NCBI GenBank assembly: GCA_033127725.1
Contig: AP026798.1
Span: 868,001 to 932,000 of the forward strand
DNA from: Bombiscardovia nodaiensis
GTDB lineage: Bacteria; Actinomycetota; Actinomycetes; Actinomycetales; Bifidobacteriaceae
DNA length: 64,000 nucleotides
Reading direction: 5' to 3'
Shown here: in pieces, positions 22,169 to 40,128 of the stretch
Numbering within the stretch: position 1 is the stretch's first letter
Layout of the letters: each line of letters starts with the position of its first letter
The notes under the pieces: generated by a model
The model's input: only the letters and a program-made list of their open reading frames with translations
Told to the model about the DNA's origin: nothing
Databases searched by the model: none
Made by a program: the position numbers and the translations under genes

Positions 22169-22197
22169 GCGAGGCGTGCCTGTCTAAGGTAAAAGAG

Positions 22198-22233
22198 TTT
22201 GGGGCTTCACCCGCATACGAGTGAAGCCCCAAA
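22198..22233. terminator. Terminator hairpin between VbhA-like gene and RCC1 gene
   Basis: A perfect 13-bp stem (TTTGGGGCTTCAC at 22198-22210, complement at 22221-22233) with a 10-nt loop lies between convergent genes. The A-rich left flank (AAAAGAG) gives a T-rich tail on the minus strand, so it suits the RCC1 gene best and may act in both directions. Confidence 0.82.
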
Positions 22234-22238
22234 CTGCT

Positions 22239-25200
22239 TTAGGCGGAGATGGTGGCGTGCTTGCCTGGGTGCTGGCGTCTGTGACTGAGCTGGTAGCCTG
22301 CGTAGGTGAGGGCAGACAGCGTGGTCAGGCCCAGCAGGGTGCCGCCAGTCAGGCGGTGAAGGGGGATGGCCCCGGCCTTGGGGAGGGTGAGAAAATCGTT
22401 GTATGTGTATGGGAGCGGGTAATCGGATTGGGCCGTGCCGTCTAAGGTCCAATGGATGTTTGCGGTGACTTGGCCAGAGCTGTGAGCGGGGGCGGACACG
22501 TTCCAAGTGCTGCTGCCAGCGTCCCAGACAGGTGCAGGCGCGGCTTCGGTCTGGTCGAACTTGATGCCCGTTACTGTGATCTCGTGCTTTTTGCCAACTC
22601 TCACTGGTGTGGATCTACTGGCAGTATTACCGGTACCAAGCTCACCTGCACCATTGTCGCCCCATGCGTAGATGGTGCTGTCATTCCCGAGTGCAAGAGC
22701 GTGGGCATATCCTGCGCTTATAGCAGTGATGTCTGTACCGGAAGGTATGTCTCCAGAGATTATCTTTCCAGGTGTATTCCTGCCAAGCGTGGTGCCATTA
22801 CCAAGCACGCCTCGCCAGTTATCTCCCCACATGTAGACAGCATGGTCATCGGTAAGTGCCATAGTGTAGCCTGGTCCTGTCTTAAGGGTGGTGATGTATG
22901 TGCCTGGTGTAATTTCGCCCGGGAGGATTTTGACTGGTGTATTTTTATTAGTGTTACTGCCGTCGCCGAGCTGCCCTGAGTAATTGTTTCCCCATGCATA
23001 GACGGTGTGATCGTTGGCTATTGCTAGGTTGAAATCCCCATTACCCGTGTTAAGGGTGGTGATGTATGTGCCTGGTGTAATTTCGCCCGGGAGGATTTTA
23101 ACTGGTGTACTTTTATTAGTGTTACTGCCGTCGCCGAGCTGCCCGTAATTGTTGAGTCCCCACGAATAAAGTGCGTGATTACTGCCAAGCGCTATGCTGT
23201 GCTGGTATCCCGCAATTATAGCAGTAATATATGTGCCAGCTGCGATGGCCCCCTCTTTAACTTTGACGGGCACATATTTATTAGTGAGACTGTCATCGCC
23301 GAGCTGCCCATATAGGTTTTGTCCCCAAGCGTAGAGCCCTCCGTCATTACTGAGAGCCAAAATGAAATTGCCGCCCGCACTTATGGTGGTTATGTATGTG
23401 CCTCGTGTGATAGCGCCAATACTGGCTTTGATCGGCACATTACTTTGAAGATAACCCTCGCCATTGGCCAGCTGCCCGTGGACACCGTCTCCCCAAGTGT
23501 AAACGTTCCCATCGGTAGCCAGCGCTATTGCGCTATCATGGCCTGCGCCGACCTCAATGAAGTGAATACCCTTGGGTGCACGAACACGTACTGGAGTGGT
23601 ACTGTAGCTACTGATTCCAACGGGTGTGACGCCATCCCCGAGTTGCCCGTAGATGTTGGTTCCCCACGCATAGGTGTTGCCGTCGTTGCCTATAGCTAGA
23701 CTGAGCTGTCCTCCTCCACTGATTTGGGTGTACTTGACGCCCTCTGGAGGTTCCGGTGGCGTGATACGAACGGTGTTTCCTCCGCTGACGGGTCCTTTAT
23801 TAGGGTTGAGTTTGAATTGATTTGGTCTCCACTTGGCGGTGAGTGTCATATTGCTAGAGACCGGTGTGTTGAAATCCCAGCGATCACCGCTGGCGGTAAA
23901 CCACCCCTTGAATTCGTGTCCAGCCCAAGTAGGCGTGGGATCGGGGCTATCGATAAGGCCTCCCGTCATTGGGTATTGATTGTCGGGTGCTGTACCTGGG
24001 GCCCCTGCAAGATCGAATTGAACAGTTTGCGTGGTTTTGTATTCGTAGTGGAGTGTAAGGCTACCAGTTTGGACATTGGGAAAAACTTTGTTGGACGTGT
24101 CAATACCGTCGATGCTGTAGCTGACTGCAACGTCGACTAATCCGACGGGATGTTGAGGCACTTGCAGGTTCCAAGCTCTAGTGTTGGTATTCTCTGTTTT
24201 TTGGTTGACCGGTGAGCTGCCGAAACTGACAGCGGTGATGGTGTACTGCCAGCGAATAATAGGGGGAATGGCCTGGTAGGGTGACAAATGCGGCCCACCG
24301 TCGAAGAGGACGCACTTGCCCCATCCGTAGACAGTGTTATCGCTGGCGAGACCAGCTGTTTGGTCTCCGCCTAATGATGCTGAGATAGCGGTGAAATGCG
24401 TGCCTGCGGTGAGGGTGGTGTTACTGGTTTTTACTGGCGACATTCTGTCGTATCTGGTGCCGTCACCGAGTTGTCCGTTGTCGTTGAGACCCCACCCGTA
24501 GACGGTGTTATCGTTGCCGATTGCTACGGAGTGATAGCGTCCTGCGGAAATGGCGGTGATGTAAGTATTGGGAACCATAGCGGCACGGAGTACTTTGGTT
24601 GGAGTAGACTTGTTCGCTCTGTTACCGGTGCCGAGTGAGTAGAAAGTGTTGCTTCCCCATCCATATACGGTGTGGTCGCTGCCGATTGCTAGGGAATGCC
24701 AGCCTCCTGCGGAGATAGCGATGATGGTGCTGCCGGGTGTCATTTCTCCGGGTAGGACTTTAACTGGGGTGAGTTTGTCGACAGTTGTGCCGTCACCGAC
24801 TTGGCCCATGTCGTTGCGCCCCCAGGCGTAAGCGGTGCCGGTGCTGCTCAGGGCCATGGCGTGGTCAGTGCCGGCGCTAATGCTGGTAATTTGTGTGCCG
24901 CTTGGGATGGCTCCTGGCAGAATTCTGACTGGGGTGGTGCTGCCTGCTGTGGCGGAACCATTGGCTAAGCGGCCTCGGAAGTTAGCGCCCCACATGTAGA
25001 TGGCGTTGTCGCTGGTGAGAACCATGGAGTAGTAAAAACCTGCGCACACTTGCACAGGGCGAGCGCTTGTTCCTAGGCTTATTTTCGTGGGAACGAGCCT
25101 ATTGGTTTTGGTGCCGTCGCCGATTTGTCCCTCGCTGTTGTCACCCCAAGCGTAGACATTGCCGTCGCTGCCAATGGCCATGGAGTTGCCGCCCGAAGAG

Positions 25201-25638
25201 CCTCCTCCTGCGCTGATTTGGGTGAAATGCACGCCTGCTGGATTGGTTATGTGGATAGGTTCATAGCGCGTAACAGTGGTGCCGTCGCCGACTTCGCCTG
25301 TGTAGTTGGCGCCCCAGCCATAGGTCTCTCCGTCATCGGTGAGAGCGAGAACATGGCTTGTACCTGCGCTGATTTTGACAAATTTTGCGTTGGTCGCTGG
25401 CGGTGCTTTGGGGGGAGTGATGGTGGCCAGGTTATCTTGGTTGGCGGGGCCTTTGGTGGGGTTGAGGGTGAATCCGTTTACTGTTTCGGAGGTGTAGTCA
25501 ATAGAGCGTAAGAGGGGGTTTGTGTTGCCTTGCGGTGTTGGGCCAGCGGTGGCCGACTTGGCTAGGCTAAGTCCCCCCCCCCAGGACAATGAGAGTAAGT
25601 GCGAGCAATGTTGCACTGGTTGCACGAAAACTGCGCAT
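22239..25638 (-). CDS. RCC1-repeat surface protein with sortase anchor, frame set by a G10 tract
   Basis: ATG 25638 follows GAGGAG and encodes a signal peptide (MRSFRATSATLLALTLIVLG). The frame is lost at G10 (25573-25582) and, as written, translation stops immediately. G9 would give LGGGLSLAKSATAG and a 1132-residue protein. Fourteen RCC1 blades are readable as YxWGxNxxGQLGDG motifs in two sets of seven, so two seven-bladed propellers are likely. Between them are Ig-like stretches and an InlB B-repeat-like domain ending WDFNTPVSSNMTLTAKW. The C-terminus has LPKAG (22371-22385), a hydrophobic segment and RRQHPGKH, a sortase signal. The gene uses more A/T than its neighbours. Cell adhesion is plausible but unproven. 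Confidence 0.88.
22882..23146 (-). repeat. Internal near-identical RCC1 blade repeats (168-bp period)
   Basis: The stretch starting at 22882 recurs at 23050, 168 bp (56 residues) later. About 95 nt are almost identical, with two differences visible. It encodes consecutive RCC1 blades and offers a substrate for gain or loss of blades by recombination. Confidence 0.85.
25573..25582 (-). repeat. Poly-G (G10) tract inside the signal peptide
   Basis: Ten consecutive C on the plus strand encode the Gly stretch at the signal peptide end of the RCC1 protein. Length changes of one base would switch the frame on or off. In the given sequence the frame is off. Confidence 0.9.
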
Positions 25639-25639
25639 T

Positions 25640-25757
25640 GGTGAAAGCTCCTCAACCAAAATGTTAAGCGTAAGCTACGGCCCACCGCCGTACTTTGCTG
25701 GATTCCCTTTACCGTCCGGACCAGGTCCCCCAACCCTTAAGTCCACGAACACAAACT
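25640..25757 (-). promoter_or_regulatory. Structured 5' leader of the RCC1 gene
   Basis: Between the likely -10 box and the start codon lie about 115 nt with several self-complementary segments, including ACGGC (25677-25681) with GCCGT (25687-25691). I could not match this convincingly to a known riboswitch class. No coding sequence is seen between the RCC1 start and the glycosyltransferase start at 25969. Confidence 0.35.
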
Positions 25758-32492: not shown

Positions 32493-38709
<6,217 letters not shown>

Positions 38710-38953: not shown

Positions 38954-40128
38954 ATGCTCGCAGACTCTGAGATAGAAGCTCTGACTAGGCGAATTAAGTC
39001 CGACGTGTTCGCGCGCCTGAGCCGGGTGATTGACCCGGAGTTGGGCCGGTCGGTCACTGACCTGGGCATGATTACCGAGATTGAAGTGCGGCCTGCGCCC
39101 GGCAGCCCCACCAGCATTGCTGGGTCCGGCAAGCCCGTGTTCGACGTCATTATTTACGTGGAGCTCACGATCGAGGGCTGCCCGCTCACGCAGACGATTG
39201 CGGACCGGATTGACGCAGCCGTGGCCTCATATCCTACTGCCGTCCTGCGGCCCCATCAGGAGGTCTCCTCCATGAGCCAGGACAAGCTCCAGGCCCTGGT
39301 CGAGCAGCTCAAGGCTGAGCGACGCTCCAATCCCTTCAACAAGGTGGGTGTCAAAACCCGCATTTTCGCTGTCGCCTCCGGCAAGGGGGGCGTGGGCAAG
39401 TCGTCCGTGGCGGCCAATCTGGCTGCCACTTTTGCGGCCCTGGGCTATGACACGGCCGCCATCGATGCGGACATCTACGGCTTCTCTCTGCCTGGCCTCT
39501 TTGGAGTCAAGGGCCAGCCAACAAATCTGAACGGGATGTTGATGCCGGTCACCGCCTGGGGGGTCAAGCTCATCTCTATCGGCATGTTTGCGGGCTCGGA
39601 GCGGGCCATTTTGTGGCGCGGACCCCGCCTGCAGCGTTCGCTTGAGCAGTTCCTGACCGACGTGTGGTGGGGGAGCCCGACGTGCTGGTGCTCGACCTGG
39701 CTCCCGGCACCGGCGACATGGCTATATCGGTGGCCCAGGCCCTGCCCAACGCTGAACTGGTGATTGTGACCACCCCCCAGCCCTCGGCTTCCGACGTGGC
39801 CGTGCGCTCGGGACTGGTGGCCCTGCAAGTGCCCACGAAAGTGCGCGGCGTGGTGGAGAACATGTCCTGGTATGACCACGCAGGGGAGCGTCTGCGCATC
39901 TTCGGCCAGGGCGGCGGCCAGCGGGTAGCTGACCAGCTCAGCCAGGCCCTGGACTATCCGGTTCCCCTCCTGGCCCAACTGCCCCTGGACCCCGACATCC
40001 GCCAGGTGGGGGAGGCAGGTCGGCCCGCTGTGCTCCAAGCTGATGGCAGCCTGGCTCAGACTCCATTGGCAGAGCAGTTCACGGTCCTGGCCCGCAGGCT
40101 CATGGGAGGCCCAACCGGAAAGGCCTGA
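38954..40128 (+). CDS. mrp: Mrp/ApbC-type iron-sulfur carrier ATPase, frameshifted
   Basis: This P-loop protein is of the Mrp/NBP35 family, which loads Fe-S clusters onto target proteins. An N-terminal DUF59 (MIP18-like) domain covers about residues 8-100, followed by the deviant Walker A SGKGGVGKSSVAAN and DADIYGFSLPGLFG. The frame breaks at a G5 run (39669-39673); G6 gives VWWGEPDVLVLDLAPGTGDMAIS, and the full protein has about 391 residues. The CxxC pair of many Mrp proteins is not visible; NMSWYDHAGERLRIFG stands in its place, as I recall for other actinobacterial members. ATG 38954 follows AGAGGAG. Confidence 0.9.

Follow-up and report, generated by a model that had tools for sequence, protein, structure and literature searches.

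A poly-G tract within the signal-peptide codons of a Bombiscardovia nodaiensis surface-protein gene, one of a family of probable phase switches

A run of ten G lies within the signal-peptide codons of a gene for an RCC1-repeat surface protein of Bombiscardovia nodaiensis. With a probability of about 0.8 we regard it as a slipped-strand phase switch, one of about 27 in the genome, placed in the signal-peptide codons of mostly sortase-anchored surface proteins. One G gained or lost in replication would bring the ATG frame into register with the ectodomain or take it out of register. In the first case the protein would be exported and anchored, in the second translation would stop early, after 23 residues in the gene described here. 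The gene lies in a stretch of 64,000 nucleotides (contig AP026798.1, positions 868,001 to 932,000), referred to below as the window. The feature had been seen correctly in a first-pass annotation of this DNA, and its mechanism is of a known kind. The gene has the following features, in window coordinates:

25573..25582, minus strand: G10 homopolymer, the proposed switch, starting at the third base of codon 19 (CTG), 56 nt past the A of the ATG, and lying in codons 19-22
25567..25638, minus strand: short ATG frame with ten G, 23 aa, with the basic start and hydrophobic core of a signal peptide, Gly3-Thr and stop
22239..25580, minus strand: main frame 3' of the tract (P0001), 1113 aa, with 13 RCC1 stretches, one Flg_new (Listeria-Bacteroides) repeat, an LPKAG motif, a hydrophobic segment and a basic tail
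25639..25655, minus strand: ribosome-binding site GAGGAG directly 5' of the ATG, read by eye and by pattern match
22196..22235, minus strand: 18-pair terminator-like hairpin with a T-rich tail, immediately 3' of the stop codon

The ATG at 25638 (minus strand) opens MRSFRATSATLLALTLIVL, the G of its last codon being the first of the ten, and with ten G this frame ends at TAG 25569-25567. The frame after the tract, from 25580 to 22239, begins GGGLSLAKSATAGP and has no stop across its 1113 codons. A change of one G thus moves the open reading frame between full length and an early stop (23 aa, with the 1113-aa frame beyond). The earlier reading of ten consecutive G at these positions, of an open frame of 1132 residues with nine G and of an early stop with ten agrees with the sequence (19 + 1113 = 1132), and twelve G also joins the frames. 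It had further placed the tract at the end of the signal peptide, but LSLAKSATA follows the tract in the open frame, and in our reading by eye the tract lies inside the peptide. G10 is the sole single-base run of at least 8 in the window. At the assembled ten G, the long frame extends without a stop to 25736 on its 5' side, a stretch that offers six GTG or TTG codons but no ATG, and the database gene call P0002 starts it at TTG 25589 (MSWGGG...), without a signal peptide. Both P0002 and another gene call, P0011, begin MSWGGG... in the frame lacking the signal peptide, which is thereby hidden.

P0001 matches PF00415 (RCC1, E 3e-135) and has RCC1 repeats together with a Flg_new repeat, as have the RCC1 proteins of bee bifidobacteria. 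It ends in an LPxTG-type sorting signal in the variant LPKAG, followed by a hydrophobic stretch and a basic tail. Its sequence relatives in the PDB are UVR8, HERC2 and RCC1. An ectodomain structure model, built from P0001 and 28 of the at least 120 homologues listed, had a mean pLDDT of 85 and a pTM of 0.52, and its best Foldseek match was UVR8 (among the best 50 of 723 matches). The model adds only the predicted propeller of the RCC1 fold, as expected, and since repeats lie on both sides of the Flg_new part, there may be two propellers. As the hairpin follows directly on the stop codon, the gene may end its transcript; the terminator scan found 5 sites where 4.5 are expected by chance, this hairpin having the longest stem. 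The promoter scan gave nothing exceeding chance, the plasmid search gave no matches and the scan of genome contigs gave two distant relatives. A pilus operon was rejected as an identity for the locus: the gene stands alone, its cluster holds no dedicated sortase, and of the nine sortase-family matches in the genome the nearest is about 770 kb away. The parallel with bifidobacterial pili drawn in the first-pass annotation therefore holds for the mechanism and fails for the pilus cluster.

Long G or C runs form a separate class and are not the tail of the short ones. The window contains 1660, 338, 103 and 19 runs of 3, 4, 5 and 6, respectively, none of 7-9 and one of 10. Extrapolation from these run lengths (3-6) predicts about 2.3 runs of at least 10 per genome, and 44 were observed, while by the same decay about 35 runs of exactly 8 are expected versus 2 observed. 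The 53 runs of at least 8 in the genome comprise 2 of length 8, 7 of 9, 38 of 10, 2 of 11, 3 of 12 and 1 of 13. More than half (27/53) sit 50-64 nt past the ATG of a long open reading frame, for which the chance is 9e-45, assuming 2000 genes with 15 nt each. GGG makes up 9.7 % of the glycine codons in the bodies of the 27 tract genes (309/3192) and 301 of 3874 in the tract genes of Bombiscardovia apis, and the open frame at the tract carries two or three GGG in succession. Since GGG is rare in the gene bodies, the GGG runs are not a by-product of the protein. A need of the protein for the tract was rejected on the same rarity and on the mixed-codon paralogues described below. The tract is kept beyond chance and protein need, and is maintained at the DNA level.

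The 27 genes were obtained by reading the DNA around all 53 runs of at least 8 in the genome to which the window belongs; to be counted as a tract gene, a locus needed an ATG 39-80 nt 5' of the run and 300 aa or more of open frame 3' of it. They are spread from 68 kb to 2.16 Mb, 26 with G10 and one with G11, and the tract lies 50-64 nt from the ATG, mostly 56 or 57, near codon 20. By Pfam, the ectodomains are RCC1 (PF00415) in 21 genes, leucine-rich repeats (LRR) in five and Flg_new repeats only in one, and LPxAG is present in 23 of the 27. This recurrence, together with tracts in surface genes of four other genomes, supports the original slipped-strand interpretation well. Modulo 3, the open length equals 1 in 21 of the genes and 0 in four, of which the window gene is one, i.e. 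most paralogues are open at 10 (or 13) and the window gene at 9 (or 12). At the assembled lengths 20 genes are in register and 7 out, the window gene among the latter. Two loci stand outside the count, at 1045800 (321-aa ORF, no start) and at 1598802 (no ATG within 39-80 nt). The latter is an RCC1/LPQAG gene with 798 aa past a G10 and with in-register ATG codons 101-167 nt upstream. Outside surface-gene starts, the G10 tracts at 1728654 and 1932317 have nearly identical flanks and represent a duplicated tract-bearing element.

Some RCC1 genes have no tract. Seven of the 16 such loci listed in B. nodaiensis were read, six with a visible start and one beginning outside the stretch read. Three of the six starts have, at the same place, GGA GGT GGG GGG, GGA GGT GGA or GGA GCT GGC (Gly-Ala-Gly), and the other three have unrelated signal peptides. 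Judged by these codons, switchable and putatively locked, mixed-codon forms coexist. The sequence immediately behind the tract is partly shared between different ectodomain kinds. Over the 45 nt past the tract, pairs of RCC1 and LRR genes are up to 0.87 identical in both B. nodaiensis and B. apis (shuffled maximum 0.69-0.71), and a later 300-nt stretch of the same pairs does not exceed background (0.53-0.61 among the pairs listed). The median over all RCC1-LRR pairs, 0.67 (of 105) and 0.64 (of 260), is barely above the background of 0.60 and 0.59, and sharing of the 5' end is thus evident in some pairs but weak in the majority. In this comparison the B. apis genes 1700699 and 1522798 were labelled LRR and 'other', while Pfam gives Flg_new only and LRR, respectively.

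The genomes compared include those of B. apis (G002), Bifidobacterium actinocoloniiforme (G001), Bombiscardovia coagulans (G013) and Bifidobacterium xylocopae (G026). The best protein pair between B. nodaiensis (G000) and B. apis is 92 % identical, and a bee is the likely host of B. nodaiensis. B. apis has 37 genes of the same design, eight with G10 and 29 with G11, of which 9 are in register and 28 out. Their ectodomains are RCC1 in 26 (by pattern), LRR in ten (nine by Pfam and 1702680 by reciprocal best hit) and Flg_new only in one; 470350, with a TTG start, is not counted. The six tract genes of B. actinocoloniiforme have G11 (four genes), G12 and G13; two are in register, and five have the RCC1 pattern, the sixth being cut by a contig end. 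Its locus 1130630 was left out, with the tract 95 nt past the ATG. In two further genomes, G007 (31 of 36 tracts of at least 9 read) and G019 (three hand-picked regions with RCC1 matches), the tract of most RCC1 tract genes lies about 111 nt past the ATG, just beyond the signal peptide. In both genomes, neighbouring RCC1 genes about 4 kb apart (L158 and L161 in G007, L172 and L174 in G019) have the tract at this second switch position.

Tract lengths in G007 span 9-19, and its copies at 1072371 and 375159, with flanks identical at 107/110 and 90/90 positions, have G15 and G17 and opposite register. To judge from this pair, change in the tract is far more rapid than in the sequence around it, which is what slippage would predict. 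Similarly, 68483 in B. nodaiensis and 461214 in B. apis are identical at 110/110 upstream bases and have G10 and G11, respectively. Length polymorphism is thus seen between near-identical copies in G007, while lengths are bunched in B. nodaiensis (represented by one strain), B. apis and G019. Over 27 genomes the number of RCC1 matches correlates with the number of tracts of at least 9 (Spearman rho 0.58, P 0.0017, uncorrected for kinship). With 103 tracts of at least 9, 42 of them of at least 13, B. xylocopae leads the genus sample.

The first-pass annotation had described the gene as currently off. As a fact this was rejected, given the oddly uniform tract lengths in the assembly and the assembly indels indicated by two frameshifted genes in the same window:

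35945-38709, plus strand: ligA split over two frames, adenylation-domain profile 2-95 then 102-253, near a G4 run
38954-40128, plus strand: Mrp/ParA-type iron-sulphur NTPase gene (mrp) split over two frames, profile 4-110 then 110-236, near a G5 run

The halves of each match successive parts of one Pfam model. They came from five ORF pairs of our own choice, tested with regard to the seven other frameshifts claimed; two pairs were ordinary neighbours and one matched no family. Because ligA is essential and a broken ligA is hardly compatible with life, its split is probably an assembly indel, indel errors are likely, and tract lengths are not to be taken at face value. Whether an assembly error also affects the tract itself, so that the tract has a true length other than ten and most cells have the gene open, we consider an even question, which concerns the state and is compatible with a switch. 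Besides ligA and mrp, with G4 and G5 runs at their junctions, the bunching of lengths at one value per assembly speaks for such an error. Exactly G10 is found in 26 of the 27 surface tracts of B. nodaiensis, G11 in 29 of 37 in B. apis and in 6 of 7 in the G019 regions. B. nodaiensis tracts outside surface genes also favour ten (12/26), and with 38 of 51 tracts of at least 9 at one length this genome is extreme among those with ten or more. A Bifidobacterium breve reference also listed G11 where 59 % of the molecules had G12 (PMC9187656). However, six further tract genes of B. nodaiensis are likewise out of register, and an error would leave unexplained the existence of the tracts, their shared place, their maintenance at the codon level and their head-on orientation. 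An alternative to indel errors is a sharp mutational balance at 10-11, as is suggested by analogy with a G10 locus of B. breve, which in culture had 93.4 % G10 and 6.5 % G9 (PMC9187656). If this is true, the genes of the set would mostly be on and off only in rare cells, with the opposite holding for the window gene. As 20 of 27 genes in register is far above the one third expected (P 2e-5), the set may be largely constitutive; B. apis has 9 of 37 in register. Fast independent switches should scatter more in length than is seen, which counts against a switch. The assembly is too error-prone to tell the on or off state of the window gene.

All tract genes counted are transcribed head-on to replication: 27/27 in B. 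nodaiensis, 37/37 in B. apis, 6/6 in B. actinocoloniiforme, 6/6 in G007 and 5/5 in G019, in total 81/81 in five genomes. P values for orientation treat paralogues as independent. The origin was placed from dnaA and the terminus was taken to be opposite. dnaA is at 1.7 kb in B. nodaiensis, at 1.5 kb in B. apis and G019, at 1.40 Mb in B. actinocoloniiforme and at 1.95 Mb in G007, and in the latter two the strand rule moves with it. The base skew of the stretches read also fits these shifted origins, and it changes sign at about 1.1-1.2 Mb in B. nodaiensis and about 0.9-1.0 Mb in B. apis. Other tracts are head-on in 12 of 26 cases in B. nodaiensis and 28 of 44 in B. apis, and other coding bases of the window in 26 % (one window, crude codon-usage model). 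The rule therefore belongs to the switch genes and not to G runs as such. With the genes head-on, by our derivation the leading strand would be copied from the G run and the lagging strand from the C run. This placement may raise slippage, or be kept for it.

It is quite conceivable, if somewhat short of an even chance, that orientation and tract are both passive, inherited from a head-on ancestor by duplication and by origin-symmetric inversions, which keep orientation. Tract-less RCC1 loci of B. nodaiensis are mostly head-on too (12/16 among the matches listed). Nevertheless, 4 of these 16 are co-directional versus 0 of the 27 tract genes (Fisher P 0.015; the 16 were compiled by eye from 150 of 535 candidates scored and may include broken halves of one gene), and the LRR and Flg_new tract genes follow the same rule. 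Slippage at expression, in which RNA polymerase or the ribosome slips on the G run so that the tract sets a level and not a state, is unlikely. Long homopolymers are slippage sites for polymerases, but the near-identical G007 copies differ in length, and therefore the DNA itself slips. Moreover, pili of B. breve appeared when the frame was fixed and were absent in the parent (PMC9187656). We would be surprised if the gene had two products, with an upstream or internal TTG or GTG start giving a cytoplasmic RCC1 protein when out of register; the upstream opening to 25736 and the TTG chosen by gene callers would allow it, but none of the six candidate codons has a convincing ribosome-binding site by eye, save a weak AAGGG before 25733. 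Hardest of all to credit is a decaying pseudogene frozen in the off state: the assembled gene is out of register and the GC3 of the long frame is only 0.59, but 1113 codons are free of stops, and the repeats and motif are intact.

A phase switch of this kind has close parallels. In B. breve UCC2003, replication slippage at poly-G switches sortase-dependent pilus clusters, and as here a G10 or G11 near the 5' end parts the secretion signal from an anchored surface protein, its length setting the register (PMC9187656). The B. breve strains listed there have one or two pilus clusters each, with a dedicated sortase, whereas here 27-37 stand-alone non-pilin genes have the tract, inside the codons for the signal peptide. 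In bee bifidobacteria, surface proteins with RCC1 repeats have been described at 7-24 per genome, 19 in Bifidobacterium asteroides PRL2011, and likewise combine RCC1 domains, a Flg_new repeat, a sortase signal and many diverging copies, with LPxTG in place of the LPxAG found here (PMC4449606, PMC3447821). The terms 'phase vari', 'homopolymer' and 'slippage' do not occur in the main texts of these two papers. Poly-G pilus switching and the RCC1 family are thus each already published. The open-licence literature (titles and abstract starts, among the matches listed) gave no paper on bee bifidobacteria with poly-G tracts in RCC1 or LRR genes, and for RCC1 with phase variation unrelated papers only.

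Gardnerella also belongs to the Bifidobacteriaceae. Its tracts lie by genes with InlB B-repeats and LPXTG, and one tract had 9 or 10 between colonies, but about 70 % of its G/C tracts are upstream of ORFs, and the sections considered mention no gene family whose tract sits at a set place within the signal peptide (PMC11287997). Neisseria has about 11 phase-variable opa genes (PMC3745409).

The Opa proteins of Neisseria and the Hop adhesins of Helicobacter are, like the proteins considered here, multi-gene surface families in which every member has its switching repeat among the codons for the signal peptide. They are Gram-negative outer-membrane proteins with CTCTT or CT repeats, unlike the present poly-G tracts in a Gram-positive with a sortase-type anchor and several ectodomain kinds.

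We tentatively propose a wider picture, with odds a little below even. A common 5' switch (start, signal peptide and G tract), always head-on, would front unrelated ectodomains (RCC1 propeller, leucine-rich repeat and Flg_new stalk), giving 6-37 independent on/off proteins per bee-gut symbiont genome. The orientation would be part of the device, in that slippage is set by a G run that faces the fork as leading-strand template; tracts would turn into locked mixed-codon forms, and a second site past the signal peptide would be used in the B. asteroides-type clade. What seems to be new is the scale, the location in the signal peptide, the presence of several kinds of ectodomain, the existence of locked copies and the head-on rule.

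For such surface proteins, the gene calls and 'frameshifts' of public genomes should not be relied on. According to a review, higher mutation of head-on genes was found in Bacillus subtilis, but the finding is contested and homopolymer runs may account for it (PMC10710837). A strict head-on rule in five genomes, with other tracts as a built-in control, bears on the open dispute over orientation kept for raised local mutation; no rule linking phase variation to head-on replication was found in the titles and abstract starts of the matching open-licence papers. Phase variation has mostly been studied in pathogens. The benefit of the switch may be that cells of one clone differ in their surface, which might serve adhesion or protect from phages or rivals, and dozens of alike switches in a probable bee-gut symbiont would point to selection other than immune escape, such as by phages, rival strains or gut niches.
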